This document shows positions 877 through 44,363 of a stretch of DNA of 64,000 nt, piece by piece (within the stretch, counting starts at the first letter, position 1; the number at the start of each line of letters is the position of its first letter). The notes under the pieces were generated by a model. That model made no database searches, was not told the origin of the DNA, and saw only the letters and a program-made list of their open reading frames with translations. A program made the position numbers and the translations under genes. Source of the stretch: Gammaproteobacteria bacterium (GTDB taxonomy: Bacteria > Pseudomonadota > Gammaproteobacteria > SZUA-152); NCBI GenBank assembly GCA_029882975.1, contig JAOUJW010000007.1, positions 124,001-188,000 of the forward strand, in the 5' to 3' direction.

Positions 877-2199
877 ATGTCGTTTTCCATAACAAGCAGA
901 GAGATCAACCCGCAAATTGGTGTTTTCGCTGTGCCGGGCGATACGCTCTCAGCACAGAGTATTCTCATCGCCACTTTGATTAACAGGCACCCGGTCGAGT
1001 TATGCAATATGCCGGTAACTGACGGGATATTGAAACTACTGGAGGCGCTGCAACATTCCGGCGCCACCGTACGCCGCCAAAGTGATGTTTTGAGTTTAGA
1101 CTATGACTCCATGAGTTCCTACAGCGAAACGACGTTAACAAACTTACTGGATGCACTGGACGAACCGTCCCTATTACTGCCTGCCGCCTTAGCACTCAAC
1201 GGTGAAATCACACTAAACCGGGAACAACTTGCGCGGTGCACAACCACCCCCATGAGTGCAATCTCGCAAGTACTGGAAAGTTTCGGTGTAGCCGTGTCCG
1301 TCACAAGTGACAGCGTTTGTGCAAAAACCCATTTTTTTAAACCATCCAACATAAACTTGCAAGACTACCTCCATAGACAATGGCAGGACACAGAAAAGCG
1401 ACAACAAAATGCCGCCTTAAACTTGTCTATGATTGCCATCATCACCGCCGCCGCCGTGACGCTGGGTGCCAGCACTGTGCAACTTCCTATCAGGCACCCT
1501 GTTGTGGACGAGTTACTGACGTTTTTAAAAGCCGGCGGTTACAGAGTAGCCCGCAAAGACCTGAGCGTAGCCATTACTCCGCCTCGAAAAGCCAAAAATA
1601 TGGTGAGTTTCAACTTACGTCCTAACCCAAGTAACATTTTCGCATACGTAACCGCCGCCACGTTTTTCAATATCCCCCTGGTATTACGTAATGTACCGTT
1701 ACAAACCGTAAAGCAACACCAGGCCGAAAAACTGTTATTAGAGCGCATGGGATTGAACATCGTCTACGAATGCAACTCCATGTATATTCCGGTAAGAGAG
1801 TCCGTCAAGCTATCCCCAATGGAGATCGACCTGGAAAAAACCGGCATACACCCAAACCATCTGGCTTTTTTTGCCTTAATGCTCAATCGCTCCCAAGGGC
1901 CCAGTTATATCCGTCCTTGGCCTGCGGAGCTGAATTGTATTATGGAGCTGGCGAAACTTGGCCTGCGACTGGAAATCGCCAATGACGTGTTGCGGATCAA
2001 CCCAACACCACCCTACATTAAAGACAAAACCATCCATTGCCGCGATGAAAACGCGGCAATGGCGACCATGCTGGCCGGATTGAGAATTTCTGAAGGTACA
2101 ACAATTATAGACACAACACCCGCTGCCACATCTGCCTGCAAATCATTGCATGCGCAGCTACACAATATTGGTTTTGAATCTGAGTTTTGCACTTTATAA
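877..2199 (+). CDS. EPSP synthase (AroA)-like protein, probably not a canonical enolpyruvyl transferase
   Basis: 440 residues, the usual length of the EPSP synthase/MurA fold, with repeated beta-alpha-beta units (for example GVFAVPGD near residue 15 and the late segment LAFFALMLNRSQGPSYIRP). The N-terminal signature of true EPSP synthases, PGDKSISHR, which supplies the phosphate- and PEP-binding Lys, Ser and Arg, reads PGDTLSAQS here. The LGNAGTA-type motif near residue 95 is also not recognisable. The protein therefore looks like a family member that has lost or changed the reaction. It stands alone, far from other shikimate genes, next to luxI and behind a lux box, so a specialised-metabolite or signalling role is more likely than housekeeping aromatic synthesis. 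The start has only a weak ribosome site. Fold assignment is fairly sure; function is not. Confidence 0.65.
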   Translation: MSFSITSREINPQIGVFAVPGDTLSAQSILIATLINRHPVELCNMPVTDGILKLLEALQHSGATVRRQSDVLSLDYDSMSSYSETTLTNLLDALDEPSLLLPAALALNGEITLNREQLARCTTTPMSAISQVLESFGVAVSVTSDSVCAKTHFFKPSNINLQDYLHRQWQDTEKRQQNAALNLSMIAIITAAAVTLGASTVQLPIRHPVVDELLTFLKAGGYRVARKDLSVAITPPRKAKNMVSFNLRPNPSNIFAYVTAATFFNIPLVLRNVPLQTVKQHQAEKLLLERMGLNIVYECNSMYIPVRESVKLSPMEIDLEKTGIHPNHLAFFALMLNRSQGPSYIRPWPAELNCIMELAKLGLRLEIANDVLRINPTPPYIKDKTIHCRDENAAMATMLAGLRISEGTTIIDTTPAATSACKSLHAQLHNIGFESEFCTL

Positions 2200-2242: not shown

Positions 2243-2947
2243 TCAAACCACACTGTGGACAGATACAGACACCTCCGAATCTGTTCGCAGTTGTTTAAAC
2301 ATGTCCATGTAGGCATTCAACATGCGCGGGCTTTTTTGGCTGACTTGCACCATAAAAGTTTGCCAATCCAGACAAGCCGCTACCGCCCAGACCCCATCTG
2401 CCATACGCTGAGGAGCCGCAATCCGCTCACAGGGCAAACCCGAAAGACGCAGAGCGCGAAGCACCGACACTGACACCACCATATAAACATAGCGATAATT
2501 GTTCAGCATGCAACAACTGAACAGGCCCTGGTATAACACATCAGCTATACTCCAACCGTCGGTAAACCGAGAGGCGCGGTGAATTTTATCCACTGCCAAG
2601 CGGGTGACCTCACAACAGTTATTCTGTTTCAGTTTAGTCGCCGCTTCAGGCAACAACATACTGAATTCATTTTGCAGCATCCATGGCTGGTCCGGCCCGA
2701 TGATTCTTAAAGTTCCTAATAAGTAATCCTTTTCGTATGCAGCAACATATGCAGCAAACTGATCATAGGAATCCCTTTCCCGCTTAGTAGGAGGTACCCA
2801 GTTTAGCTCTTCAAAAAACACTCGGGCGCGTAATCGGAATATGTCATCCCAGTGTTCTCGCATCAATCCACATTTAACCGTGTACTCAGAACCCGTGTAT
2901 GTATAATCCCGAAGTAAGCCAAGTTGAGCATCAATTTGTAATTGCAT
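2243..2947 (-). CDS. luxI: Acyl-homoserine-lactone synthase (LuxI family)
   Basis: 234-residue autoinducer synthase. All the near-invariant LuxI residues can be placed: Arg and Phe in LRARVFFEELNW, the following Trp, two Asp in RERDSYDQF, Arg in GTLRIIG, Phe in the FSMLLP segment, and Glu/Arg in EVTRLAVD. The family makes N-acyl-homoserine lactones from S-adenosylmethionine and an acyl-ACP or acyl-CoA; the acyl chain cannot be predicted here. A clear ribosome site (GGGAG) sits 6 nt before the ATG, and a lux box lies about 72 bp upstream of the start, consistent with positive autoregulation by the LuxR protein encoded at 3776-4519. The gene is convergent with the EPSP-synthase-like gene, with a 43-bp gap. 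Confidence 0.93.
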   Translation of the reverse strand: MQLQIDAQLGLLRDYTYTGSEYTVKCGLMREHWDDIFRLRARVFFEELNWVPPTKRERDSYDQFAAYVAAYEKDYLLGTLRIIGPDQPWMLQNEFSMLLPEAATKLKQNNCCEVTRLAVDKIHRASRFTDGWSIADVLYQGLFSCCMLNNYRYVYMVVSVSVLRALRLSGLPCERIAAPQRMADGVWAVAACLDWQTFMVQVSQKSPRMLNAYMDMFKQLRTDSEVSVSVHSVV

Positions 2948-3735: not shown

Positions 3736-3775
3736 CATAGGTGAATTATTGATTTTTTACTCAGAGACCTGTTAT

Positions 3776-4519
3776 ATGAGTCACTCACCGGCACTGAAGC
3801 AACGAGACTATCAACAACTCCTGGAAAATACACGCCAGTGCCTGGAAGACAAGTCTGAAAAATCCATCACTCAAGCTATGTCCACCTTACAAAACCTGGT
3901 GGGCTTTGAATATGCTGTTATCAGCCAGTTTGACCAAAAACAAAATATCCGCCGGATTCTGAAAGTTGTTAATCACAGTTACGACCTGCAATGGGTCGAT
4001 GCCTATGTAAGCGAACAATATATTCAGATAGACCCTGTCATTGAACAGGGCATCAAGACTGTTGGTCCTTTTGAATGGTCCACGAATAAAAAAATCAAAC
4101 CCAAACGACCGCAACAGTTTTTTAATGCCGCCAGAGATTTTGGATTAAAAACCGGCGTCGCCAATGTATTCACCTCAAAGCAAAAAGCTCCCCTGAGCCA
4201 TGATTACTACACCGTCATCTCCATGGCCAATGTGGAAGAACCGCGAGTGGAGCTAAGCAAATATCTGTTGCAACTCATGTCACCCGTTTTGAGTGAATCG
4301 GTTTCCAAATGCACTACACGACAACCCGTTTGTCTGAGTAAAAGGGAAATAGAAATATTAAAATGGATGATGGCAGGCAAAAGCGCCTGGGAAACCAGCA
4401 TCATTCTGTCCATCTCCGAACGCACCGTGCGATTTCATCTGGCCAATGTTTACAAAAAACTGGATGTGGTTAACTGCCCTCATGCGATAGGTGAAGCCAT
4501 CAAACTGGGATTGGTATAG
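3776..4519 (+). CDS. luxR: LuxR-family AHL-responsive transcriptional regulator
   Basis: 247 residues. The N-terminal autoinducer-binding domain (about 20-165) shows family residues: Trp and Tyr in the QWVDAYVSEQY segment, the Asp-Pro of IDPV, Trp in FEWS, and Gly in LKTGVANVF. The C-terminal GerE/LuxR helix-turn-helix (about 180-245) runs from LSKREIEILKWM through TVRFHLANVYKKL. The family binds acyl-homoserine lactones and then lux-box DNA; the two boxes in this window are obvious targets. I start at the ATG at 3776. An in-frame TTG at 3749 has a reasonable AGGTGA site but would nearly coincide with the predicted transcript start. It is encoded on the opposite strand from its likely partner luxI. 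Confidence 0.9.
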   Translation: MSHSPALKQRDYQQLLENTRQCLEDKSEKSITQAMSTLQNLVGFEYAVISQFDQKQNIRRILKVVNHSYDLQWVDAYVSEQYIQIDPVIEQGIKTVGPFEWSTNKKIKPKRPQQFFNAARDFGLKTGVANVFTSKQKAPLSHDYYTVISMANVEEPRVELSKYLLQLMSPVLSESVSKCTTRQPVCLSKREIEILKWMMAGKSAWETSIILSISERTVRFHLANVYKKLDVVNCPHAIGEAIKLGLV

Positions 4520-7321: not shown

Positions 7322-8683
7322 TTACTCTTGCTTTGAATGAGTAGCTTCCACCACGTCTGCCAATTCCTTCTCCACTGCCTCATCAATATGTATGGATTCG
7401 GAAATATCAAATACACCGGCATCGGGATCATTGTAAACTGCCAAATCCATCTTCCCTTCCGATTTTGCCACAATGCTGGAAACCACTGCATCTCCGGATA
7501 CATTTACTGCGGTCCGTATCATATCCATAAGACGGTCCACGCCCAAAATCAAGCCAATACCTTCCACCGGCAAATTGACTTGCGCAAATACCATGGACAA
7601 CATAACCAAACCCACACCGGGAACACCGGCAGTGCCGATGGACGCCAGTACGGACATCAATATGACCGTCAAATATCCGCCGATCCCTAGATCTACGCCG
7701 TAAACATTGGCAATAAATACTGTGGCCACACCTTGCATAATGGCCGTACCGTCCATGTTAATGGTGGCTCCAAAGGGCACTGTAAACGAACCCACGGAAT
7801 TGTTTACTCCCAACCGCTGGGTTACAGTACGTAAGGTGATGGGTATGGTGGCATTGGAACTGGCGGTACTGAATGCGAATACTTGGGCATTACGAATTTT
7901 TCTCAAAAACAGCATGGGGTTCAATCCGGAAAACAGTTTCAGAACCACCATTAAGGTAACGAATAAATGGATCATCAGGGCACTGACCAATACCAGCACA
8001 TACCCGAGCAACTGCCCCAACAGATCCAACCCTAAATCGGCCATAGACTTGGCAATGAGCGCAAATACCGCATAAGGTGCCGCCGCCATTACCAGCGTTA
8101 CCATTTTCATCATAATCTCGTTGGCAATCTCCGCCGCTTCGATAAAACCTTTGGCCTTGCGTCCCACCATTAGCATGCTGATACCCAGCAGGATGGAAAA
8201 GAAAATAATCGGTAGCATATCCCCTTTGGCCATAGAGTTGATGGGGTTCTTGGGAATAATATCGATAATGACCTGACTCAACGGTGGAGCCTCTTTTCCC
8301 TGAAATACTGCGTCTGTCGCCTGATTCATCCCCTCACCAATACCGGCACCAGCCGCGATGGCGATAGCAACCGCAATGGCAATAGCGGTGGTGGCCATGT
8401 ACAGCAAGAAAGACTTACCGCCGACACGCCCTAACGTTTTTACATTACCAATGCCACACACACCGCAAATCAGTGAGAAAAACACCAGCGGGACCACCAG
8501 CATTTTCAGGGCATTTACAAACATAGAGCCCAATGCGTGGAACAAACCGTCCACGATGTAGACGTTGACAAAACTACCCTCGGCATTCAATCCGGTAAGA
8601 TTAAAAATCAAGCCTAGAACTATTCCCAGCCCCATACCCAGCAAAACCTGCACGGTCAGGCTCATTTTTTTCTTGGCATTCAT
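7322..8683 (-). CDS. Dicarboxylate/amino acid:cation symporter (DAACS/GltP family)
   Basis: 453 residues of eight-helix plus two-hairpin glutamate-transporter architecture. Diagnostic segments are the serine-rich hairpin loop STASSNATIPITL (about residue 275), the Na+-site motif GATINMDGT (about 305-313) and the substrate-binding helix VDRLMDMIRTAVNVSGD near residue 400. The family imports glutamate, aspartate or C4-dicarboxylates with Na+ or H+. The C-terminal 40 residues are acidic and cytoplasmic, longer than in E. coli GltP. It is convergent with the merR operon, separated by only 12 bp with no visible terminator. Confidence 0.92.
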   Translation of the reverse strand: MNAKKKMSLTVQVLLGMGLGIVLGLIFNLTGLNAEGSFVNVYIVDGLFHALGSMFVNALKMLVVPLVFFSLICGVCGIGNVKTLGRVGGKSFLLYMATTAIAIAVAIAIAAGAGIGEGMNQATDAVFQGKEAPPLSQVIIDIIPKNPINSMAKGDMLPIIFFSILLGISMLMVGRKAKGFIEAAEIANEIMMKMVTLVMAAAPYAVFALIAKSMADLGLDLLGQLLGYVLVLVSALMIHLFVTLMVVLKLFSGLNPMLFLRKIRNAQVFAFSTASSNATIPITLRTVTQRLGVNNSVGSFTVPFGATINMDGTAIMQGVATVFIANVYGVDLGIGGYLTVILMSVLASIGTAGVPGVGLVMLSMVFAQVNLPVEGIGLILGVDRLMDMIRTAVNVSGDAVVSSIVAKSEGKMDLAVYNDPDAGVFDISESIHIDEAVEKELADVVEATHSKQE

Positions 8684-10272: not shown

Positions 10273-11625
10273 TTAATGTAATTGAAGTAAAAGACGACCA
10301 CCGAATTTTACGGAAATCAAAGTTTCCAGCTTTAATGGCCTCGCCGCTGTTTGATCCGATATAGTGAAGCGAAATTGGGACGCAGCGGTTACCACGGTGG
10401 CTAATGCTTCGTTAAAACCAAAGTGACGCCCCAGGCACATACGTGGTCCGGCACTAAAGGGGAGATAGGCGTTTTTGGGAATGTTTTCTTCGTTTAAAAA
10501 ACGCTCGGGTCGAAACGCCTCTGCATCCTGCCAATAACGAGGATTTCGATGTAAGGTCCAAGGCGAGACCCAGACCACATCGCCTTTTTTAAATTGATGA
10601 CCGCAAACCGTGTGTGTATGCGTACAGCGTCGCGACATCTGCCACACCGGCGGATACAAACGCATCGCTTCTTTAACAAAACAACGGCTGTACTTCATAG
10701 AATCCAACACTTTCTGGTCTAAGCTAAAACCTTTTATTGAAGCGGATTCCTGGTACACTTTCTCACTGCTCTGTCCTCCACGCGCCAAGGCGTAAAAACA
10801 CCACACCATAAGATTGGTCACTGTGGAACCGGAAAAAATAAAATTCTTTAATTCATGGTACAGTTGCCCCGGTTCAATCCTCTGTTTTAAAGCTTGATAC
10901 ACACAGGGTCGGTTGTGTTGATCGCTTAGTGCCGACAACTGCTGAATCAGCCGATCAAACTGTTGGTGTATAGCACCCATACGGCTATTACGCCCCACAG
11001 GTAGCCACGGACAGGCCAGCAATAAACCTTCGACCACGGAAAAACGCATGGATTCCAATTGTTGCGCAAACGCCAATTGCTCATCGTTAACCTCGACACC
11101 AAAAATTAAGTAGCAAATGACTCGGTAAGACAATAAATTTACACACGCACCAATATCTAGCGCTTCTCCGCTATGCTTGGCTTGCTTAAAACGGGACATC
11201 AAATCGTTTAAAGCATGGTCCAATACGGGTTGCATTAAAGCATACTGCCCGTGATGCAGGCATTGCTTTGCGCCATTGCGGGCGCGCTTCCAGGGCTCGC
11301 CGCTGCTGGTAATAATTCCAGGGGCTACGAAAGCATTGAACAAACGATAATCCAGCGTATCTTTGTTAAAACTCAGATCGGTTTGCTTGAGTACGTGTTG
11401 TGCTAATTCCGGGTCATTGAATAAGTATACCGGCCAGGGCGTGCGTATTTTCACCCGATCACCCAACTGGGATGCCGTCAACAAAGATTGCAGCGGTTGA
11501 CCGTACAAACGCCAGGCCGGAATCGATACCGAAGTCAGAGGAATATCTTTAGCTTGCTCTATGCTGCTGTGTGCACCGGAACCATCCGGCCTGGCGCGTA
11601 ACGCTTCCCGATACAACTTAAGCAT
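10273..11625 (-). CDS. Cytochrome P450, last gene of the six-gene biosynthetic operon
   Basis: 450 residues. The haem-ligand loop FSAGPRMCLGR (Cys near residue 395), the K-helix Glu-x-x-Arg in KEAMRLYPP and the FRPERF motif identify a P450. The I-helix reads FIFSGSTVTNLMVW where most P450s have (A/G)Gx(D/E)T, so the acid-alcohol pair used for oxygen activation is not seen; this suggests unusual chemistry or peroxide use (inference). The helix-rich N-terminus lacks a clear membrane anchor. It overlaps the NRPS-like gene by 8 bp, so translation is coupled. The substrate is most likely the amino-acid- or lipid-derived product of the operon, perhaps while carrier-bound. No ferredoxin partner gene is nearby. 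Confidence 0.9.
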   Translation of the reverse strand: MLKLYREALRARPDGSGAHSSIEQAKDIPLTSVSIPAWRLYGQPLQSLLTASQLGDRVKIRTPWPVYLFNDPELAQHVLKQTDLSFNKDTLDYRLFNAFVAPGIITSSGEPWKRARNGAKQCLHHGQYALMQPVLDHALNDLMSRFKQAKHSGEALDIGACVNLLSYRVICYLIFGVEVNDEQLAFAQQLESMRFSVVEGLLLACPWLPVGRNSRMGAIHQQFDRLIQQLSALSDQHNRPCVYQALKQRIEPGQLYHELKNFIFSGSTVTNLMVWCFYALARGGQSSEKVYQESASIKGFSLDQKVLDSMKYSRCFVKEAMRLYPPVWQMSRRCTHTHTVCGHQFKKGDVVWVSPWTLHRNPRYWQDAEAFRPERFLNEENIPKNAYLPFSAGPRMCLGRHFGFNEALATVVTAASQFRFTISDQTAARPLKLETLISVKFGGRLLLQLH

Positions 11626-14581
11626 AAACCGGCTGTCCCAATTTTTGTTTCATGGCATGTGCTAATTGCTGCACATGAGGCTCTGTCAACAAAGTGAAAT
11701 GATTGCCGGGAATGGCGCAATAATCCACCGTACGTGAGGTAAACGCCTGCCAGTGCTCGGCGGATTGCTTATTTCCCAGAGAATCGCCGGCGCCAAACAA
11801 AATCAAGTCCACATCGCAATCCTGTAGACCATAACGACACACGGACTCCAGGTTATAACGAAAGGCGTTAATAAAATCTCTGGCATTGTCTAAATTAAAA
11901 TTATGGGGAGACAACTTGAAGCGTTGCATCATGGACAACACCAAATTCAACTGCCGCTCCGGCGCAATACTAAAAAGTAAGGGAGAGGGCAGCCATTGCA
12001 ACCAATTGAGCCGAGTACCGACGGTGACTTGCAGTATCTGATCCATGATATTAAACACCGACGCATCCAATTGCTGCAGCTCGGCCTTGCTGAATCGCAC
12101 CCCCATTAACTGAAAAGCCATCAGCCGCAGCAGTTTTGTCAGCAAGTTTTTTGAGTAACGCATCTCAGAGGGTATCTTAACGGAAAAACCTTCACCGATA
12201 AATTTGACCAGGGATACAAAGGCGCTTGTTTCCACGTTTCTATACGCTTTTCTATTACCCCTGTTTGAATTGCTCTTTGCATTCCCCTTCGCAACCGTTT
12301 TGCTATCTCGAAGTGATACTGTGGCGTGCGCATCTGCATAAGGCATTTCGGAATCAATCAGCAGCACGGACTGAACCACTTCACCCTGCTGCAATAAATG
12401 CTTTGCCACGGCCACCGCCATCACCCCGCCCATGGACCAACCGCCCAGCACATACGGCCCTTCGGCTTGCACGGCTTGAATCTGCTGTGCATACAATCGC
12501 GCCAACTGATCCAAATCCACAAACTTTTGTCCGTAAGGATATTGCAAACCGTAGACAGCGTAGTGATTATCCAATTCTTTGGCCAAGCGTGCATAGGCCA
12601 GCACATTGCCGCCCGGCGCATGCACCAACCACAGAGGTTTGCCCTTGTCACTACGATGTAAGGGCACAACTATGGAATGAAAACCGGAAGTGGACTGGGA
12701 CTCGGCGCCGGTATTGGACTGCTGTCGCAATCGCTGCGCCAAGGACAAAATATTGGGGTTGGCTAAAAACTCGGCCAGGGTGAGCGTCTGTTGCAACTGG
12801 GTTTCGATGGCATTTAATATTTTAAAGATAGTTAGGGAATCCCCCCCCAGATCAAAATAATTATCACTGAGCTTAATGCCTTTGCGTCCCAAAATCGACT
12901 CCCAAATTTGAGTCAGATGAAATTCAGTAAGATCATAAGCCTCATCAAACAAGCGCGTAATAAACGCGGATTCCTTATCCTTACCTGAAGAATAGTTCGG
13001 TTTGGGTAACTTCTTGTAATTCACTTTACCGTTGGGAAGCCGCGGTAACTGGGTCAATCTCTCGTAATAGGCCGGCCACAAAATGCGTGGCAACCCCGCT
13101 TTGACATGACCTGCAACTGTCTGGACAATATCCACACCGGTATCAGCCACTAAATAGCAAATAATTTGTTGTCGCCCTCGGTGTTCCCTGGCATGAACCA
13201 CACACTCTTTGACTGCAGTTAACGCATTGATGTGGTTTTCCAGCTCTGCCAATTCAACCCTAACCCCGTTGATTTTCACCTGATGATCTTGCCGACCCAG
13301 AAACTCCAAATCCCCACTGGGTAAACGCCGACCGTAATCTCCGCTGCGATAAACCTGCCGGGGAGTTGCATGCTGACCATTGCCATCCTTTATCAGATCG
13401 CTATAAGGAAAAAATACCTGCGAACTCAGTTCCGCTTGCTTGTAATAGCCCGGCAAATAAAACCCGGGACTAATACAAATCTCCCCTATTTTATCGTCGT
13501 CGATACATTGACCGGCGGCATCCAACAAAAAGACTTGCGTATCGTCCATGGCTTGACCAATGGGAATGGTCCCCCGTTCGGCATCCTGCGGGCGGACAAA
13601 ATAGGCTACTTTGGTCATCACGGTTTCCGTAGGACCGTAACTGTTAATCAACTGCGCCGTTTCACCCGATCCATACCAAGCCGCCACATCGAACGGCAGT
13701 AAACGTTCGCCCGCCAGCAAAACATAGCGCAGCGTAGATAATGGCGACGCCTGCCCGCCATTGCTCGGAAACAATAAACGCAGCACGGAGGGAATGGTAT
13801 GCAACACGCTTATGCTTGATTGCTGCAACCATTGGCGTAATTTATCTCCGCTCAAGAAGGTTTCGGTGCGCGCGGGAATACACACCGTGCCACCGCAACA
13901 CAAGGGTGTAAATACATCTCGTAAGAACGCATCGTAAAACGGTCGGCTTAGCTGACTGACACGACAACCGGCCGTTAGAAACAGACTTTGTCTTTCCCAC
14001 TGCACAAAATGCCAAATCCCCGCCCCGGTCCCGGCTATGCTCTTCGGTTGCCCGGTGGAACCGGAGGAATGATAAACATAACTGATGCTATTGGGATCTT
14101 TTTCCAGACCCGTTGCTGAGTTTTGCTGCCATGAATCTGAGGAATAGGCGTTTGACAGCAGCGATTCCAGACCCAGCAATTGACAGGAACAATCCCTGCC
14201 AAGGTCTTTTGCAAGCGCTTCACTGGCCGTATCAAACAACAGCAGCTTGGCTTGCACATGGTGCAACATGGCTCGCAAACGATCCGACGGATCTTCCGGA
14301 TTGAGCGGAATAAAAACCCAACCCAAGCGAAACAAAGCCAACATCAAGGGAATCACGGTCCAGCTGTCATTGCACAAAACCACAACCGGTACTTCATTAG
14401 CTTCGTCGATTGCGCTTTGTTGCAAATGGTAACAGAGTTGCGCTACTTTCTGCTCCAGCTGCTTGTAAGACAAGCGCCTGTCACCCTGCTCAATGGCCAC
14501 GGCATCAGCATGTGTCTGTATCATAGCGCTTACTTGTCCCAGCAATGACTCCTGTCGTCGTGACACCATAGTCTGCCCCAT
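11618..14581 (-). CDS. NRPS-like protein: adenylation, peptidyl carrier, thioesterase
   Basis: 987 residues. The adenylation domain (about 1-540) has the phosphate loop HSSGSTGQPK, NSYGPTET, YRSGDYGRR and the final Lys in LPNGKVNYKKL. The carrier domain has LGGDSL with the phosphopantetheine Ser near residue 580. The thioesterase (about 635-985) has GWSMGG with Ser near 714. No condensation domain is present, so it activates one amino acid and releases it by hydrolysis, esterification or transfer. The ten specificity positions read by hand are D-A-R-H-L-A-S-M-T-K; the leading Asp indicates an alpha-amino acid, but I know no matching code. The gene overlaps asnB by one base and the P450 gene by 8 bp. 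Confidence 0.9.
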   Translation of the reverse strand: MGQTMVSRRQESLLGQVSAMIQTHADAVAIEQGDRRLSYKQLEQKVAQLCYHLQQSAIDEANEVPVVVLCNDSWTVIPLMLALFRLGWVFIPLNPEDPSDRLRAMLHHVQAKLLLFDTASEALAKDLGRDCSCQLLGLESLLSNAYSSDSWQQNSATGLEKDPNSISYVYHSSGSTGQPKSIAGTGAGIWHFVQWERQSLFLTAGCRVSQLSRPFYDAFLRDVFTPLCCGGTVCIPARTETFLSGDKLRQWLQQSSISVLHTIPSVLRLLFPSNGGQASPLSTLRYVLLAGERLLPFDVAAWYGSGETAQLINSYGPTETVMTKVAYFVRPQDAERGTIPIGQAMDDTQVFLLDAAGQCIDDDKIGEICISPGFYLPGYYKQAELSSQVFFPYSDLIKDGNGQHATPRQVYRSGDYGRRLPSGDLEFLGRQDHQVKINGVRVELAELENHINALTAVKECVVHAREHRGRQQIICYLVADTGVDIVQTVAGHVKAGLPRILWPAYYERLTQLPRLPNGKVNYKKLPKPNYSSGKDKESAFITRLFDEAYDLTEFHLTQIWESILGRKGIKLSDNYFDLGGDSLTIFKILNAIETQLQQTLTLAEFLANPNILSLAQRLRQQSNTGAESQSTSGFHSIVVPLHRSDKGKPLWLVHAPGGNVLAYARLAKELDNHYAVYGLQYPYGQKFVDLDQLARLYAQQIQAVQAEGPYVLGGWSMGGVMAVAVAKHLLQQGEVVQSVLLIDSEMPYADAHATVSLRDSKTVAKGNAKSNSNRGNRKAYRNVETSAFVSLVKFIGEGFSVKIPSEMRYSKNLLTKLLRLMAFQLMGVRFSKAELQQLDASVFNIMDQILQVTVGTRLNWLQWLPSPLLFSIAPERQLNLVLSMMQRFKLSPHNFNLDNARDFINAFRYNLESVCRYGLQDCDVDLILFGAGDSLGNKQSAEHWQAFTSRTVDYCAIPGNHFTLLTEPHVQQLAHAMKQKLGQPVYA

Positions 14582-16470
14582 TAGTTAGACGCTCCGGAAA
14601 CGGAAAACACGTCCAGGAATACGTTAAAACTCAACACAATCATTAACCAATCGTCTTCGTACGGCAAATTGAGTCGAAACCCGTCTTGCGTATATTGTTG
14701 TCGCAAGTATTCCACGCTGTCGGGATTAAAATAACCCTGGCGCTTGATACGATCATAGGACAAAAGGTCATTAACCCATTCCAGGTTCTGTTGCAGTAAG
14801 GCATCGCTGCCGCGCGCATGAAAACCGAACTTTTGCCGCTGTGCGATTCGGGCCGGCAGTTGGGAGTTAGCCAACTGCCGTAATATCACTTTCTCCTGCC
14901 CATTTTGTATTTTCAAATGAGCCGGTAAGGTGGCAGAAAACTCCACCAAGTCTTTATCCAAAAACGGATAACGCACTTCCACCGAATGCGCCATACCCAT
15001 GCGGTCGCCATGATCGGAAATTAAATGCTCGGACAAACGCAACTTAAAATCCAAGTAAGAACGTTGATCCATGGGATTGCGCCCACGCAGCATATCCACA
15101 TCTACCGGACTATGGTTTATGCAATTGAAATCAGTGAAGTGTTGATTGATTGGGTCGGAGTACAGGGCTTTTTTGCTGTCTTCAAAAGCATGGTATTCGC
15201 GTTCGTAGTAACAATATTCATCACCCCACAAGGTGTTGCGGTATTGCCGCTCCAAAGCATGCTGTAAATCATCGGCAACAGTCTCATCCGAGTCCGCCAG
15301 AGAATCCAAACGGTAGCCTACGTAGCCGGCGAAAAACTCGTCCGCCCCTTCCCCGGACAACATCACTTTGTAGCCCGCATCACGTACCGCCTGGGACAAA
15401 GCCATAGAACACAAATTGTAAGACTCTTTCACGGCACACTCGCTGTGATAAATCATGCGTTCAAAGGCTTGGGGAGAATAATCGTAGCTGAAAGGAATAT
15501 TGTGCAAACGGGTTCCGCAATGAGCAGCCACCGCCTGTTGATAAGACGATTCATCCTGTTCTTTCTCATTGAACACAATCGAGTAGGCAGGCACCGCATC
15601 GGTGCTGATCTGGGAAGCCAGCCCTAGAATCAACGAGGAGTCCAAACCACCGCTCAAATAACACCCCAGCGGTACATCGGATTGCAAACGATAAGCAATG
15701 GAACGGGTCATTAACTCTTGTAACTGCTGCAAATATTCCTCATCCGACTTTCTTGCTGTGGCGCTTTCCGAGTAGCTATCTGTTGAACTTAAGGGATAAT
15801 CCAAATCCCAATAGCGGCGCATTTGAATATCACCGTGTTGCACCAAGGCATAGTGTCCGCTTTTTAAACTGTGAATGCCTTGAAACAAGGTCGTTGGACT
15901 CACCAGACCGGGGAACGTCATGATTTGATCCAGACCACGCAGATCCACCGCGGCATTCACTTTGGGATGTTGCAGCAGCGCTTTTATTTCCGAGGCAAAA
16001 ATCAGCTCTTTCTCTGCCAGCGTATAAAACAGCGGACAAATACCAAAGTGGTCCCTGGCCAGCATTAAGCGCCGCTGGCGCATATCGTACAAAGCAAAGG
16101 CAAACTGGCCGTTGAGGCTTTTAACGAAATCCGGGCCTTGCTCCAGGTATAGATATATGAGTACTTCCACATCGGACTGGGTTTTGAATTGAATATTCTG
16201 ATCTTGCAACGATGCTTTGAGCTCGCGGTGATTAAAGATTTCCCCATTGCAAATCAATACCACCGAGTTATCGTGAGAGAACAAGGGCTGGTCGCCGCCC
16301 TCCGGGTCCATAATTTTCAAGCGCCGAAAACTCAAACCCACGGACTCATGCACAAAACAGCCGCTGGAATCGGGACCGCGATGCTGCAAACGTTCACTCA
16401 TGCGAGCCAGCACCGCCTCTTCCGGTTTACCTTGGCCGCTTAAATGTACCATGCCTGCAATTCCGCACAT
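14581..16470 (-). CDS. asnB: Asparagine synthetase B-like amidotransferase
   Basis: 629 residues. The start at 16470 gives MCGIAG, the required N-terminal nucleophile Cys of class II glutamine amidotransferases; an upstream in-frame GTG at 16488 would bury it. The glutaminase domain (about 1-210) includes RGPDSSG and CNGEIFNHRELK. The synthetase domain has the ATP-binding PP-loop LSGGLDSS (about 272-279) and SGEGADEFFAGY. It transfers glutamine-derived ammonia to an adenylated carboxylate. In this operon it more likely amidates a pathway intermediate, or supplies asparagine to the adenylation domain, than acts in general metabolism (inference). It follows the acyltransferase gene by 4 bp. Confidence 0.9.
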   Translation of the reverse strand: MCGIAGMVHLSGQGKPEEAVLARMSERLQHRGPDSSGCFVHESVGLSFRRLKIMDPEGGDQPLFSHDNSVVLICNGEIFNHRELKASLQDQNIQFKTQSDVEVLIYLYLEQGPDFVKSLNGQFAFALYDMRQRRLMLARDHFGICPLFYTLAEKELIFASEIKALLQHPKVNAAVDLRGLDQIMTFPGLVSPTTLFQGIHSLKSGHYALVQHGDIQMRRYWDLDYPLSSTDSYSESATARKSDEEYLQQLQELMTRSIAYRLQSDVPLGCYLSGGLDSSLILGLASQISTDAVPAYSIVFNEKEQDESSYQQAVAAHCGTRLHNIPFSYDYSPQAFERMIYHSECAVKESYNLCSMALSQAVRDAGYKVMLSGEGADEFFAGYVGYRLDSLADSDETVADDLQHALERQYRNTLWGDEYCYYEREYHAFEDSKKALYSDPINQHFTDFNCINHSPVDVDMLRGRNPMDQRSYLDFKLRLSEHLISDHGDRMGMAHSVEVRYPFLDKDLVEFSATLPAHLKIQNGQEKVILRQLANSQLPARIAQRQKFGFHARGSDALLQQNLEWVNDLLSYDRIKRQGYFNPDSVEYLRQQYTQDGFRLNLPYEDDWLMIVLSFNVFLDVFSVSGASN

Positions 16471-16474
16471 GCCC

Positions 16475-17725
16475 CTACCCCAACACACTCTTGCTGCGTT
16501 CTAAGGATAAAAAGCTATGCACGGGCGGCAACGGCGCCAGCCAGTCCGGGGCCTCACCCCGAAACGGTTGGCACGCCACCCACGGCTCCGCCTCAGTTAA
16601 AGGACCAATCATGGCTGCCAAGATCGAAGACCAACGATTAAGAGGTCGATAACAGGAAAAACACGCCACCGCCTGCGCGCCCAATGCACTTTTCATCCAA
16701 TAATTGGTACGACCCAAATGCAGTAATACAGCATTGTTGTGGATGGCATATTCCAGATCATCCACCAACATGCACTTGAGCAACTGGTACTCCCGGTTAT
16801 CCTGCTCGGTCACACCAAAAAAAGCACTTTCCACCACGCCATTGACCTTATAGCGGGTATTGAACGCCATTAAACGTTGTCCGAGAAAATAGCCTTCTAT
16901 CTGATAACGCTCCAAAGGTAATTGCCGCCGCAAGGAAACAAAATAGTCCACCCCCAGATACGGACCTTTGGCTTTGGCTCTTTGGTAAACCGCGGCGTAC
17001 AAAGCATCGATTTCCGAATGATAACGTTCCAGATCTGCAAGACTGAGCAAGCGACGCTGCAAAGGTTCTGCGGCACGTCGAATTTGCTTGATGCGGGTGC
17101 GATATTTACTTTTGAGGCTGGCCATGTAGTCGTTTAAACTGTTCCACTGCTGTGGTATGGGTAAGACCATGGTGGGCGGCAAACTCAAAGAGGCATAGCC
17201 ACCAAGCACTTTGGCATGACTCATGTCGTGCTGTAAGTCTTTTAACAGCAACAAACCAAAACCTGCGCGCTTTCGTACTCTCACGCGAACCCGCTCTGCC
17301 ACTGCTTCAAGTAAGGCAGCCCTGTGCTCAGCGTCTACATGCTCTGCAAACAGCAAACCCTGTACACCCGTACTGACCACATCACCACAAACGATCATGG
17401 TCACAATGGGTCTACGACTCAAGCAACGTACGATCGCCACACGCTGCAGCGCTCTAAACCAATTTGCATCCACCAAAAGGTCGTTGAGGCTCAGGCTATA
17501 CTGCTGAAAAATCAGTAATGCACACGCCCGTCCCTGCTCGGAAACCACCGCGTAGTGAAACTGTAAACCACGTTGACGCAATATACCTTCTTGTGCCGCC
17601 AGAAAAGGCGCACCCTGAAACAGACCGGTATCGGCGGTATCCAACTGCTGCCACACCAATGGCGGTATGTCATGCACAGTGCCGTACAATTGGATAGTGG
17701 CTTTCATGACTTTCGTAGCTTTCAT
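16475..17725 (-). CDS. FemAB/GNAT-like N-acyltransferase of the biosynthetic operon
   Basis: 416 residues. The central part (about 185-370) resembles the FemAB/BioF2-like GNAT superfamily: LKSKYRTRIKQIRRA is the basic segment typical of these proteins, followed by YHSEIDALYAAVYQRAKAKG and the strand AFNTRYKVNGVVESAFFGV. Relatives transfer aminoacyl or acyl groups to amines; in this cluster it could N-acylate the amino acid activated by the NRPS-like protein (inference). It overlaps the upstream hydroxylase gene by 4 bp (ATGA). The first 33 bases contain a near-duplicate (ATGAAAGCTACGAAAGTC then ATGAAAGCC), so the Met at residue 7 is an alternative start. Confidence 0.75.
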   Translation of the reverse strand: MKATKVMKATIQLYGTVHDIPPLVWQQLDTADTGLFQGAPFLAAQEGILRQRGLQFHYAVVSEQGRACALLIFQQYSLSLNDLLVDANWFRALQRVAIVRCLSRRPIVTMIVCGDVVSTGVQGLLFAEHVDAEHRAALLEAVAERVRVRVRKRAGFGLLLLKDLQHDMSHAKVLGGYASLSLPPTMVLPIPQQWNSLNDYMASLKSKYRTRIKQIRRAAEPLQRRLLSLADLERYHSEIDALYAAVYQRAKAKGPYLGVDYFVSLRRQLPLERYQIEGYFLGQRLMAFNTRYKVNGVVESAFFGVTEQDNREYQLLKCMLVDDLEYAIHNNAVLLHLGRTNYWMKSALGAQAVACFSCYRPLNRWSSILAAMIGPLTEAEPWVACQPFRGEAPDWLAPLPPVHSFLSLERSKSVLG

Positions 17726-18711
17726 GGCTTTCGCACCGAGTGCGTCATAGTGGACTTAAGCCGCGTTATAACATCACGACAGATCTTCCCGGTGGATCGA
17801 AACGGCTGCTCTCGGTCCGTCAAACCAACCGTAAAAGGTGCACGCATTAAGTCCCAAAACCCCAGCGGATAGTGGTGATTCCTCACACCCACATCTGTAG
17901 CGTTACGATGAGGAAACCACCAGGTGCCGAATAGTAAATCCCAAAAGATAAAGGTATTGCCAAAATTGTGATTGGAAACCTGCGGCTCTCTGGCATGATG
18001 CCAACGATGCAGCTCCGAAGTACTCATGACATAGTTAAGCAAGCCATAGCGAATATTAATATTGGAATGTTGAAAAAATGCATGGATGTCGAACAACACA
18101 AAATACAGCGCCAAGACTTTTGCATCGATGCCAAGAAAATAAAAAGGTAGTATACCGAACACGAACAACATAGCCGTTTCCAGAGGATGATCGCGCCCCA
18201 CATTGAGCCAGTACAGTTTTTGCGGCGAGTGATGCACGGCGTGAAAACGCCACAACCAGGGCCATTGATGCAAAGCGCGGTGCATCCAATAAATGGCAAA
18301 ATCCACCATTAACATGATCACCACTGTCTGCAACAACAGCGGCCAATGATGCGGCCAAACCGCTAGGGCTTGTGGTTGTGATAACACCTTGCTGTCCAGC
18401 GCCAACAAAAATGCCGTCGCCAAAATCAATTCCGGTAATAGAAACTGCATCAATACCAGAAAACTCAGATCGGTAGGAACATCCTTGCGATTGGGCAACC
18501 AGTACCGCTGAAAGGGATAACGCCATTCCAGTAACGCAATACAAACCACCGCCAGCAACACAGGCAGATAAACACTCCAGGCCAATCCCAGTTCCAGGTC
18601 CAGTAAGCACCAATGCAGTAACAAGGCACCCAACATAACCGCCAGGTAGCTCATACTGGATAGCGGCGAACCGCTTTCAGATTTAGATACCGCGCTATGG
18701 GAATGTGTCAC
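17722..18711 (-). CDS. Membrane fatty acid/sterol hydroxylase, second copy in operon
   Basis: 329 residues with four to five membrane helices and the diiron His cluster: HRALHQWPWLWRFHAVHHS (about residues 142-160), a His-rich middle (HAFFQHSN) and ELHRWHHARE (about 237-246). This is the sterol desaturase superfamily, membrane oxygen-dependent hydroxylases acting on lipid chains. It is a clear paralogue of the next gene upstream and begins 4 bp after it ends. Two copies in one operon suggest two hydroxylations of one lipid product, or a heteromeric enzyme (inference). Both are only distantly like the superfamily member at 5791-6654. Confidence 0.87.
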   Translation of the reverse strand: MTHSHSAVSKSESGSPLSSMSYLAVMLGALLLHWCLLDLELGLAWSVYLPVLLAVVCIALLEWRYPFQRYWLPNRKDVPTDLSFLVLMQFLLPELILATAFLLALDSKVLSQPQALAVWPHHWPLLLQTVVIMLMVDFAIYWMHRALHQWPWLWRFHAVHHSPQKLYWLNVGRDHPLETAMLFVFGILPFYFLGIDAKVLALYFVLFDIHAFFQHSNINIRYGLLNYVMSTSELHRWHHAREPQVSNHNFGNTFIFWDLLFGTWWFPHRNATDVGVRNHHYPLGFWDLMRAPFTVGLTDREQPFRSTGKICRDVITRLKSTMTHSVRKP

Positions 18712-18715
18712 CCAG

Positions 18716-19681
18716 TCAGCCCTCCGCTTGTTGCGCTCGACGCAAACGCTTAACTCGATGTAACAACCGTTGCGCTAACTCGGCATAAGTGCTAAACGGC
18801 AGTTCCCGATCCGCCAACCCCTTAATAAACGGTGTCCGCATTTGATTGAAGAATCCCTGAGGATAATTGTCATTTTTTAATCCAATATCGTGAAATTGCG
18901 CATGAGGAAAATACCAGGTACCGAACAGCATATCCCAGATACTTAAGGTGTTACCAAAATTGTGCTCTGAAAGCTGCGTATCACGAGCATGATGCCATCG
19001 GTGCAACTCGGAGGTGCTCAGCAAATAATTTAAGAAGCCGTAAGAAATATTAATATTGGAATGCTGGAAAAAAGCATGGGAACCGAAGATCACCACAAAA
19101 AAAGCCAATACCGATTCATTGACACCCATGACCATAAAGGGCATTAAGCCAAAGCCAAACAGAAACAAGGCTTCCAGGGCATGATCGTGGTGCACATTGA
19201 GCCAATACAATTTTTTCACCGAATGGTGTACAGCATGAAAACGCCACAGCACAGGAATACCATGCAGGCCCCGATGTACCCAATAGGTGGAAAAATCAAT
19301 GAGCAGTGCCATCAGCACAAACTGGGCTAGCACAGGCCAATCATGGGGCCACCAATGGCTCAGTGTCTCGCTACTGAGAACGCCGGACTGAGCCAGGGCA
19401 AACAACACCAACATCAGCGCCAACTGCGGCAGAATCATTTGCAAAAACACCAAAAAGGTGAGGTCTGTGGCTATGTCACTTTTATCAGGACACCAGGGCT
19501 TATGGAAGGGGTAGTAACGCTCCAATAAGTTAATCGCCACAATGGAAAATATCACCGGCACATAGGCAGCCACCGCCAAGGGAATGGAGGCCCATAACAG
19601 CAAAAAATGTAATCCCAAAGCCGAAGCCATCACCGCCGGATAGGCCAGGCGCAGCCCCCATGTTTCCAGGTTTCTAACCAT
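18716..19681 (-). CDS. Membrane fatty acid/sterol hydroxylase, first gene of biosynthetic operon
   Basis: 321 residues, paralogue of its downstream neighbour along its whole length. The metal-binding His motifs are HRGLHGIPVLWRFHAVHHS (about 144-162), HAFFQHSN and ELHRWHHARD (about 238-247), conserved at the same spacing as in the partner. It is the promoter-proximal gene of the six-gene operon ending with the P450. The 264-bp region upstream must carry the operon promoter; I find no lux box there, so control by the nearby LuxR protein is not supported by sequence. Confidence 0.87.
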   Translation of the reverse strand: MVRNLETWGLRLAYPAVMASALGLHFLLLWASIPLAVAAYVPVIFSIVAINLLERYYPFHKPWCPDKSDIATDLTFLVFLQMILPQLALMLVLFALAQSGVLSSETLSHWWPHDWPVLAQFVLMALLIDFSTYWVHRGLHGIPVLWRFHAVHHSVKKLYWLNVHHDHALEALFLFGFGLMPFMVMGVNESVLAFFVVIFGSHAFFQHSNINISYGFLNYLLSTSELHRWHHARDTQLSEHNFGNTLSIWDMLFGTWYFPHAQFHDIGLKNDNYPQGFFNQMRTPFIKGLADRELPFSTYAELAQRLLHRVKRLRRAQQAEG

Positions 19682-30362: not shown

Positions 30363-33300
30363 TTACTGACCAATACTTTCGACGAACCACACATGGTGCA
30401 TGGCTGTACTGGAAGTGCTCATGTGCTGATCCCAGGCAACACCCACCTTTCCGTTATTATTGATAGCGATACTAACGCTGCCTGCATCGTTGTCTGCGGC
30501 CGTGTCGTAGGAAGCCAGCAGCGAAGGCTCCATTCCCCACGCCTGGCCCATCGGTGCAACGTTGAGATACACATTGTCCAGTTCATCGGTACGATTCAAA
30601 CTGGTCCATGCGGCGTAGGCGTTACCGGCAGCATCCAATACATATTGCAGATTGCTTTCACGCTCCGCGTTAACTCCGCTTACCTGGGATGGTGCTTCCA
30701 CATGCCACATGGACATACCATTGGTATCGGTCATGTAGTGAATCATCGCCGTCATATAACGGACCGGAGAATTACTGTTTCCGTCTGTCGTGTATTCCCG
30801 CCAGGCTGCCATGAAATGATAGGCGTCACCTGCGACGATGACTACATCGCTACGACGGCGTAAACGCACACCATCGCCGGTGGTTTTGTTATTAATATTT
30901 CCTCTGGCTGACCATCCGTTACCATCGTAAATATAGGCATTAATCGTGTTATTACCCGTGTCGGTGGATAACACCACGGTGTTACCACCGGCAGTGGCCA
31001 CATCTGTTTGATTAGTGGTCATACCGCTTGGACCATTGGATTCCGCCGACCATCCCTGCATAGGTACATAAACAGCCATTTTCAGATTAAACCCGCCAAT
31101 GTTGGTATTGGGATTGTCCACCAGCCAGGATACCTGCACCTCACCATTGGCGTGCACCACATGGGGAGTCAACACGTTGCGGGAAGGTACGGTTAAGGTT
31201 TCGGTATTTAACCAACCCCTGCTTTGCATATAGTGTTTGGCATGTATGTCCGTAGAGGTATCGCCGATGTCGCTCCAGACAACCGATACCATGCCCGTTT
31301 CATTGGTGGTTAGCTGGCGGGTTCTGCGACTGGTACGGGCATTGATCTCCGGCACAAGTCGTTTACTCCACCCTGCAGCCGGATCAAAGTTAGCCAAATA
31401 CAAAACTTCACCGTCACTAATCAAACCATACAGCATACCGCTGGCAGGAATGGCCTGCATGGACTCCAATACTGCCGCTACCGACAAATCACTAAACAGG
31501 TTGCTATCCGCCAATGCATTAGCCCAAACAGCGTTGTCTTCACTACGAATCACTTGATTGGTAACCGTTGTCACGGAGTTTTCTCCACGACTGATATTGG
31601 CCATCCCAATACGTATGGAAGTCACATCCGAATCATCCATAGCCACTTGAGGGCCATACATGCGGAAGCGGCTGGTACTGTGCATCATTTGCGATACCAT
31701 AACCGGTGTCGTCCAACCGCTAATAGTGGGAATGGCGTTACCACCCGCTGAGGGGTCGGTCGTGCCGGTTCCCGGGTTGGTAGGCTGGCTTGGCGTACCC
31801 GTACCTGTGCCAGAATCAGTGGCCGGCGTAAGATTGGTAAGAGACGTAGCCCGGCTATTTCGATGCACGCTCACCATATCATTGTTGCCGTCTGAATGAC
31901 CGACGACCCAGACGGTGTGCGGTATATCGTTATTGTCCAATGCGGTAGCCAGGGACTGAATGTGACCGCTTCCGTTCAACACGGTTCCAATCAACTCCTT
32001 TTGCGACCAAGGCGTACTCATGGCTTCTTTATAGCTGGCGACCACGTTACTGCCGCCGGACGTGGATTCCACCCAGGCCGCCGCCACTTTACCCGCATCA
32101 TTCATACTCAGTTCAAGCGCAGCGACTTCCGATTGAGTCCAGGCATGCATAACAGTGGCTGCAGTATGCCAACCCATGCTTGGCATGTACTGCGCCGCTT
32201 TAAGAACATTCATCATGCCACTGGCATTTTCAGCCGCCATGGCCGAGTCTTTTTCCACCCAAGCCACGCTGATATGACCCGCAGTGTTCTTGGCATACAC
32301 AGGAGCCAGGGCAATAGTGGATGTTGAAGTGGCGGATTGCCCATCCAAACGTTGCTCTGTTCCCCAAGCCGAACTGCTGTAAGACAGGCTGTAGATTTCG
32401 TGCATGGCCATACCATTAGTCATTTGCATTTGGGTATGTAAAACCATTACCAAATCGTCATTGCCTGCACCCCGGTTGAGAACGCCGGAAGCCAATCGGT
32501 TCAACATGACACCACCGGTGGTTACTGAAGACACCGTACCCCATACTTTATTGACGGTGTCATAAGTTGCCGTTTGCAGTGATGTCGCCCCATTTTGCTG
32601 CTCCAGCCACACAGCCCGAATATTATTGTTGCCATCCACGGCGGCCAAGAGAAAGTGATTTACCAAAGCCGGTGGATTTGCCATATCCATGCGATGCAAT
32701 TCCATGGAAGCCAGACTTTCCCATTGGTCAGCGGCGGTACGAGTGTGCACCCGCAGACCAAAACCATTGTTCATATGTGTCTGGCCCAGCAAATAATTGG
32801 TGTTATTGGAATCGCTAACAATCCTTGCTGCATGAACTTGAGCCGGCAAGGTAGCGCTACCCATAAAGTGCCCCATGGAACTCATGAACTCGCTGCTTAG
32901 GCTTTGCGTACCGGCATTCCAGGCCACGATGCCGCTTCCCGTACCCGGATTGGCAACAAACTGCACATCCGTTGCCGCCGTGCTGTAACCGATGGGTTGA
33001 AACATATTGCCGCTTGGACCACTCCAGGTATAAGCACCGCCGGCACTACCCACCCCACGCATCAGTGAAAATTCCGCTACGGTGTACTCGCCGGCCTGAT
33101 CCGGTACGGACTGGGTTACCCAATTGATAAACAAGTTTCCGTTGGCCACCTGCACTTTGGGAGCAACAATAACCGGCATGTCCGTAGTAACGAAACCAGC
33201 AGAGGTAATTTCTGTTGCTGTTCCCCAACTGTCGGTCACCAGGGATGGGTCCGTTGTTGGATCCAAGGTACCACCGCCCGGGTTCGTGGGTTGATCCGGG

Positions 33301-40118: not shown

Positions 40119-40964
40119 TCATATATACAATATTCGCTCTAACAATCCTGTTTTATATTTATTTCTTAGATTTAAACGTTTCATATGCACATAACCAATA
40201 TGGCAATCGCACACGCCCCGGGGGCACGGACGCTCGCCCACTAAGTCCAGCAGATCTTGTTCATAAATATTTCCCAGCTCCTCCGCTGTAAAATGGCAAC
40301 GACTAACACCACCGTCAGCGCGGACACTGAAAGTATCCTCGCCGGTAAAACACAATTCATTCAGGGACCGATAATTCCGCAAATTGTCTTCAAAGCAAGG
40401 ATCAATGGAAACAATTTGTTGTATCTGTGCGGCGGAATAGTTAACCGCCGGCGCTTTACAGGCATTCACCCACACATACACCGAATTGGGCAAATGTTTT
40501 CTTAGCTGTTGCAGCACAGGGATATGCTCCACTAGACCTACCATGCCCACACTGAAGCGGATCCCTATAGACAGCAGTTGCTCACATTTAACCAGCAAGG
40601 AATCTAGAACCATTTCGCTGGGATGATACGACACCCAAAGCGCCGTAGTCTCTGTCTTACATTGACGCAACCAATCCAGTTTGCAACTCAAATTGGTTTG
40701 TACGGCTACTTTTCTCACTGAGGCGCAATGGGACAATTCCACTAGGGCTTGTTGATACCATTTTCGGATCAGTGCCTCACCCCAGGGAGTAAACAGCACA
40801 TTGAGATCATATTGACTCCTCTGTACCCATTGCACAAATCGACGCAATGCGTGCTGATCTTTTTCCCGAGCGGACTTATCATCTTGCTGCTTGGCGAAAG
40901 GGCAATAGTCACAACTAAAGTTACAACTGGATAGATAGCCCCGGTACAAAATATTGAAATTCAT
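40119..40964 (-). CDS. STM4011-family radical SAM protein
   Basis: 281 residues. The start MNFNILYRGYLSS overlaps the upstream gene by the 4-bp ATGA, so I prefer it to an in-frame codon at 41015. The radical SAM cluster motif is CNFSCDYC (Cys-x3-Cys-x2-Cys, about residues 14-21). The C-terminal third has a further Cys set (ELCFTG, VSRCHF, CPRGVCDC) consistent with an auxiliary iron-sulfur cluster of SPASM/twitch type. The family is named after Salmonella STM4011 and has no established reaction. It is the last gene of a five-gene set of STM4011-STM4015 relatives, which together suggest a peptide- or small-molecule-modifying pathway (inference). Confidence 0.87.
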   Translation of the reverse strand: MNFNILYRGYLSSCNFSCDYCPFAKQQDDKSAREKDQHALRRFVQWVQRSQYDLNVLFTPWGEALIRKWYQQALVELSHCASVRKVAVQTNLSCKLDWLRQCKTETTALWVSYHPSEMVLDSLLVKCEQLLSIGIRFSVGMVGLVEHIPVLQQLRKHLPNSVYVWVNACKAPAVNYSAAQIQQIVSIDPCFEDNLRNYRSLNELCFTGEDTFSVRADGGVSRCHFTAEELGNIYEQDLLDLVGERPCPRGVCDCHIGYVHMKRLNLRNKYKTGLLERILYI

Positions 40965-42301: not shown

Positions 42302-42317
42302 TGGGCTTTCCCCTGAC

Positions 42318-43130: not shown

Positions 43131-43160
43131 AGGTTTAACATCTTTATATTTTCCATAGTT

Positions 43161-44354: not shown

Positions 44355-44363
44355 AATAGAAAT

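Follow-up and report, generated by a model that had tools for sequence, protein, structure and literature searches.

A very rare six-gene operon joining an A-T-TE protein to AsnB-type, FemAB-like, FA_hydroxylase-family and P450 enzymes

The stretch of DNA analysed here, 64,000 nucleotides long and referred to as the window, covers bases 124001-188000 of contig C7 in a genome of 5.18 Mb, and it holds a six-gene operon in which known enzyme families stand in a new and very rare combination. The operon is tentatively read as making, from an acidic amino acid, a product that is amidated, hydroxylated and, most likely, N-acylated, an amino-acid lipid or lipo-amino-acid, a reading which we regard as possible and as falling a little short of probable.

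The operon itself is confirmed as real. Six intact and co-directional genes run on the minus strand from 19681 to 10273 of the window in the order FAH1, FAH2, FemAB-like gene, AsnB, A-T-TE and P450, with the open reading frames lying where the first-pass annotation had placed them. With the AsnB start taken as the ATG at 16470, the spacing is +4 bp (FAH1/FAH2), -4 bp (FAH2/FemAB), +4 bp (FemAB/AsnB), -1 bp (AsnB/A-T-TE) and -8 bp (A-T-TE/P450), which matches the overlaps of 1-8 bp and gaps of 4 bp described at first reading and bears out the claim of one coupled operon. Pfam domains were found for all six genes, the one in the FemAB-like protein scoring below its cut-off. The reading frames are 321-987 aa long with unbroken family motifs and are therefore not due to chance. 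Overall GC and third-position GC are unremarkable relative to the neighbouring genes and give no sign of a foreign origin.

A gap of 264 bp separates FAH1 from the next upstream gene, and the genes upstream on the same strand are DUF498 and DnaJ-like (Pfam). Promoter-like sites were fewer than in shuffled sequences (5 observed versus a mean of 14.9). A LuxI-family autoinducer synthase (PF00765, 68 bits; window 2243-2947, minus strand) and a LuxR-type regulator (3749-4519, plus strand) lie about 6 kb from the operon, and quorum-sensing control of the operon is possible; no LuxR-box-like dyad common to the LuxI/LuxR region and the upstream region of the operon was found. The LuxI gene is adjoined by a gene for an EPSP-synthase/MurA-like enzyme (877-2199, plus strand) scoring far under the aroA and murA cut-offs. 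Downstream of the operon, a dicarboxylate/glutamate-type symporter of the SDF family (7322-8683, minus strand; 407.6 bits) could supply an acidic amino acid. Elsewhere in the window, the minus strand carries a protein of 2972 aa without a Pfam match at E<=0.001 (30363-39281) and a close-packed group of radical SAM/HemN-like, sulfatase-like, ATP-grasp (sugar-transfer type) and weak-repeat-match proteins (40961-45296), which may be a cluster for modifying a peptide or a sugar. The sole GH3-family gene found in the genome lies immediately to the left of the window (L093 17147-18775, C7:121646-123274, minus strand) and is followed on the same strand of L093 by two B12-binding radical SAM genes (15777-17234 and 14405-15775) and a weakly GNAT-like gene (13304-14395), and this group is possibly another biosynthetic operon.

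Among the genomes sampled, the whole operon occurred in its own genome only. A close FemAB-like gene was likewise confined to the own genome, both within the family (1 of 24 genomes) and among 24 genomes of the order; in the wider samples, which overlap with these and with each other, FemAB-like matches were found in 7 of 369 genomes of the class and 18 of 398 of the phylum, own genome included in both counts, and the best other match was the same in the two samples at 29% identity. One plasmid record (23% identity) and no viral contig matched the FemAB-like protein. AsnB of the clade described below was present in 2 of 398 phylum genomes including the own (E<=1e-110), and the own genome was the single hit among 355 of the class (E<=1e-105). 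An eight-residue exact-pattern scan of genome contigs, which finds close relatives only, returned three ordinary NRPS matches. By blastp at 1e-4, no second gene kind of the set was found in the loci of FemAB relatives (L058, L071-L077) or of hydroxylase relatives (L052-L057, L059-L061), ORF picking being poor in GC-rich loci and having missed the query gene in L058, L071 and L077 as well as the L060 hydroxylase. The six-gene set was not found in the literature by title or abstract, and anti-phage models gave no matches. The earlier statement that no described cluster has exactly this set thus holds for the sampled genomes and for literature titles and abstracts.

The fifth gene (11618-14581, minus strand) encodes a single-module NRPS-like protein of 987 aa, in which one chain combines A, T and TE domains without a C domain (Pfam AMP-binding 174, PP-binding 50 and Thioesterase 100 bits). 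The A domain (12997-14518; residues ~22-528, PF00501 at 22-380 and PF13193 at 446-519) has the motif HSSGSTGQPK, the T domain (12728-12916; residues 556-618, PF00550) has its phosphopantetheine Ser in GGDSL, and the TE domain (11618-12637; residues 649-987, PF00975 at 649-815) has GWSMGG and GNH. The pocket code DARHLASMTK corresponds to residues 217, 218, 221, 261, 288, 290, 314, 322, 323 and 519, which were placed on the reference numbering by hand, by alignment from the motifs. Asp 235, which holds the alpha-amino group, is retained, in a pocket of polar and basic rather than aromatic character. Activation of an amino acid by this protein, as first proposed, is supported. Synthetases of the RalA/MicA/atromentin type are A-T-TE proteins that dimerise aryl-pyruvates, and the domain order in the window is identical to theirs. 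A furanone or quinone synthetase of this type would nevertheless be at odds with the retained Asp and the non-aromatic pocket and would leave AsnB and the FemX-like gene unexplained, and we hold it to be very improbable. Among plasmids, the proteins most like A-T-TE (Leptolyngbya, Calothrix, Massilia) were rejected as relatives of the operon, since they are bigger NRPS proteins with different codes and belong to ordinary clusters. The other NRPS genes of the genome (L062 3808-18475, contig C6) include two A domains with the code DLYNLSLIWK in common.

The gene before A-T-TE (14581-16470, minus strand) encodes an AsnB-type glutamine-dependent amidotransferase that scores 465.9 bits with TIGR01536 (cut-off 267.1), matches GATase_7 (146 bits) and Asn_synthase (268 bits) in Pfam, and keeps the MCGI and SGGLDS motifs. 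The amidation step of the first-pass annotation is supported, and AsnB would amidate the substrate suggested for the A domain. The start is likely the ATG at 16470 (MCGIAG) and not the GTG at 16488, because in this family the catalytic Cys comes directly after the initiator Met and the GTG would hide it. AsnB belongs to a clade of five (support 100/100), the other members coming from two Streptomyces, one Kitasatospora and G650, a genome of another class. A 100/100 split separates the clade from the second AsnB of the window's own genome and from two AsnBs of Rhizobiales. The three best of the 15 plasmid matches listed are Streptomyces sp. NBC_01216 (52%), Streptomyces sp. NBC_01431 (43%) and Kitasatospora sp. 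NBC_00039 (43%), and the best match in the phylum sample is G650 (48%). XrtA (PEP-CTERM) loci carry a FemAB / AsnB / AMP-ligase trio, and decoration of exopolysaccharide or envelope as in those loci has in its favour that three of the six families match the trio, with AsnB at 403.5 bits against the XrtA/PEP-CTERM amidotransferase model TIGR03108 and the A domain at 139 bits against the XrtA ligase model. These scores are however far under the respective cut-offs of 816.9 and 592.4, the operon has no glycosyltransferase, and the genome holds a separate AsnB and ligase locus (L063) whose AsnB is the one grouping with the two Rhizobiales proteins outside the clade of the window AsnB, all of which makes such a decoration role distinctly improbable.

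The four relative loci were picked by AsnB alone and not by A domain, and at least one A domain with Arg239 and His278 was found in all four. The order in NBC_01216 is AsnB, an A-T protein, a condensation-domain protein and an Asp-type racemase; in Kitasatospora sp. NBC_00039, an Asp-type racemase comes between AsnB and the A-T; in G650 the AsnB and A-T genes overlap. In three of the four loci (L085 3462-7167, L078 15001-18729 and L080 12001-16408), Arg239/His278 is thus carried by an A-T of its own, encoded directly beside AsnB or with a single racemase gene between, and these three pairs sit in otherwise different NRPS clusters. Pairing is looser in NBC_01431, with A domains (codes DARHCALILK and DARHCAFMIK) in an opposite-strand NRPS gene a few kilobases off. 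The codes of the three A-Ts are DARHASLMTK (NBC_01216), DARHLALMTK (Kitasatospora sp. NBC_00039) and DVRHLALLAK (G650). Arg239/His278 was present in 5 of 14 A domains in the four AsnB-clade loci versus 0 of 10 in seven other loci (25 rows, one antisense artefact left out), and in a tree of 26 A domains the window A domain groups with three Arg239/His278 A domains at 98/94. AsnB and the Arg239/His278-type A domain are thus a recurring functional pair.

We take Arg239/His278 to denote an acidic amino acid, possibly loaded via its distal carboxylate, from alpha-aminoadipate-type and iso-linked acidic modules. No confirmation of the pair as an acid pocket was found in the literature, the available part of one cyanobacterial paper being without such a code. 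The DARHLASMTK pocket suggests an Asp/Glu-like substrate, and the Asp-type racemases beside two of the four relatives fit this acidic-substrate reading together with the amidotransferase. The loci of NBC_01216 (CP108680), Kitasatospora sp. NBC_00039 (CP108290) and G650 resemble the window in AsnB clade and A-T pocket, but their A-Ts are without TE and stand in larger NRPS clusters, and no hydroxylase pair, FemX-like gene or P450 of the set was seen in them. Resemblance is also found, in the available part of PMC7966384, to the CysH linker module of cystobactamid, a stand-alone A-T with a modified Asn-type block oxidised on the carrier. CysH differs from the window protein, as far as that part of the source describes it, in loading L-Asn but not L-Asp and in having an AMDH domain together with a 2-oxoglutarate oxygenase but no TE, and no AsnB partner is mentioned there.

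FAH1 (18716-19681) and FAH2 (17722-18711), both on the minus strand, belong to the membrane di-iron FA_hydroxylase family, scoring 98 and 108 bits with PF04116 (cut-off 31 bits), and each has three His motifs, which in FAH1 are HRGLH, HAVHH and HRWHH. They are about 52-53% identical and are sisters with support 100/99 in a 35-row tree with several long branches elsewhere, which makes them tandem duplicates. With the OlsE model NF052566 (NCBIfam) they score 157.8 and 160.8 bits, the cut-off of 475 not being reached, and they would be at most OlsE-like in action and not members of OlsE. In the same tree they form a clade of four (100/99) with proteins of two other genomes, G343 and G324, to which they are 42-47% identical. 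In G324 the hydroxylase and a GH3 enzyme are one fused protein (L053 6832-9396), in G343 the hydroxylase gene overlaps the GH3 gene (L052 8353-12039), and an epimerase-like gene of the enolase superfamily adjoins hydroxylase and GH3 in both. The sole model match of the G343 and G324 GH3 parts is OlsH (74.5 and 96.7 bits; cut-off 620) and that of their hydroxylases is OlsE (202.8 and 205.6 bits; cut-off 475), every OlsE and OlsH score being far under its curated cut-off.

In the available part of PMC12493201, OlsH is a lyso-ornithine lipid synthetase that forms N-acyl-ornithine with ATP, and OlsE, according to the title of a reference cited there, hydroxylates ornithine C4 in the head group. 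Because FAH1 and FAH2 are closest to OlsE, a head-group enzyme, and because the homologues with which they cluster are linked, by fusion or gene coupling, to GH3 amide synthetases resembling OlsH, they probably hydroxylate an N-acyl amino acid at its amino-acid end and not in a lipid tail. The lipid tail, to which the first-pass annotation had assigned their action, is thus the less likely target. The G324 fusion and the G343 operon are similar to the window in drawing their hydroxylases from the same clade, whereas amide synthesis there would be by GH3, with an enolase-superfamily gene, in place of which the window has A-T-TE, AsnB and the FemX-like protein. The OlsH/OlsI pathway of Singulisphaera acidiphila, as far as it is described in the available part of PMC12493201, starts with the ATP-dependent formation of an N-acyl amino acid, in the lipid class of OlsE, a step that the window operon would share, but the operon has no GH3 or OlsI, a predicted acidic amino acid instead of ornithine, and an added amidation.

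The FemAB-like gene (16475-17725, minus strand) matches PF04339 FemAB_like weakly, its 24.4 bits being under the gathering cut-off of 27. Modelling from the single sequence gave a pLDDT of 34, and a 13-row alignment including 12 distant homologues gave a model with pLDDT 78.3 and pTM 0.80. The best PDB match of this model in Foldseek was FemX 7z6a (E 2.7e-12; TM 0.56 by query and 0.68 by target), followed by Sbb17/Sba18, which are aminoacyl-tRNA-dependent peptide synthases, and MprF-type domains. The tandem GNAT fold of FemX/FemAB transferases is seen in the model at pLDDT 78, and a FemX-type fold is predicted for the protein. This fold is common to aminoacyl-tRNA-dependent enzymes and can transfer aminoacyl or acyl groups, so that the fold alone cannot separate the two leading readings of the operon. 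Of the FemAB/GNAT-like acyltransferase suggested at first, the fold is thus recovered in the model, and the choice between acyl and aminoacyl donor is left undecided by it.

The main rival to the N-acyl reading is a soluble amino-acid derivative without fatty acid, namely an acidic amino acid in amidated and hydroxylated form, or a short amide, that serves as antimetabolite or signal. Aminoacyl-tRNA would then be the source of an amino acid added by the FemX-like protein, and the enzymes of the FA_hydroxylase family would work on the amino-acid part, no fatty acid being involved. FemX and the natural-product enzymes Sbb17/Sba18, aminoacyl-tRNA-dependent and among the best fold matches, are consistent with this, and the clusters around the AsnB/A-T relatives are of NRPS type, with genes annotated as racemases, carbamoyltransferases and aminomutases and not as lipid genes. 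The closest hydroxylase relatives are however tied to OlsH-like GH3 and have OlsE as best model, both lipid enzymes, and a soluble product is judged rather unlikely.

The last gene (10273-11625, minus strand) encodes a cytochrome P450 (PF00067, 190.5 bits) with ExxR kept and the Cys loop FSAGPRMCLG, in agreement with FxxGxxxCxG. An acid-alcohol pair in the I-helix is common in P450 monooxygenases; here the I-helix reads FSGSTVT (window 10836-10816, minus strand), the acid of the pair is missing, and an alignment to 6j94 has a gap at the position of the 6j94 Glu. The enzyme may accordingly differ from an ordinary monooxygenase. Supply of a free beta-hydroxy amino acid is known from glycopeptide and aminocoumarin pathways, and the single A-T-TE module with its directly coupled P450 gene resembles that model, in which A-T-TE would load the amino acid, the P450 (and the hydroxylases) would oxidise it on the carrier and the TE would release it. 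Such a supply route leaves AsnB, the FemX-like protein and the pair of membrane hydroxylases unused, the customary I-helix acid is missing from the P450, and we find the route improbable. This free-supply reading and the XrtA-type and RalA-type ones explain fewer genes or fail a test.

For the preferred N-acyl reading, we infer substrate, acyl donor, step order and product from what was observed, namely gene content, motifs, coupling, clades and the predicted FemX fold. The A domain would bind a dicarboxylic amino acid of Asp, Glu or aminoadipate type through Arg221 and His261, activate it and load it on the T domain. AsnB with glutamine would convert one carboxylate to a carboxamide, before loading or on the carrier, and the amino group would be converted to an amide by the FemX-fold transferase. 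Hydroxylation of the amino-acid end would fall to the OlsE-like membrane pair, the P450 would add a further oxidation, and the TE would release the product. Against the reading, the operon contains neither a gene for an acyl donor or acyl carrier nor an OlsA-like O-acyltransferase, and the nearest GH3 belongs to a different operon ~11 kb off and is only ~25% identical to the G343 GH3. The low OlsE and OlsH scores also speak against it, and the FemX fold, in a FemAB model of moderate quality, fits an N-aminoacyl product equally well.

A more speculative proposal, which we consider unlikely as it stands, is that the operon is a fourth route to bacterial amino-acid lipids, in which A-T-TE, a dedicated AsnB and a FemX-fold transferase would replace OlsB, OlsF or OlsH, giving a carboxamide-capped acidic amino-acid lipid hydroxylated by two OlsE-like enzymes and a P450. 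The operon joins two associations, that of the AsnB clade with rare-pocket A domains in Actinomycetota and Pseudomonadota and that of the OlsE-like clade with amide synthetases. Solving it would give the substrate of the A-domain code and could show NRPS chemistry used for amino-acid lipids.
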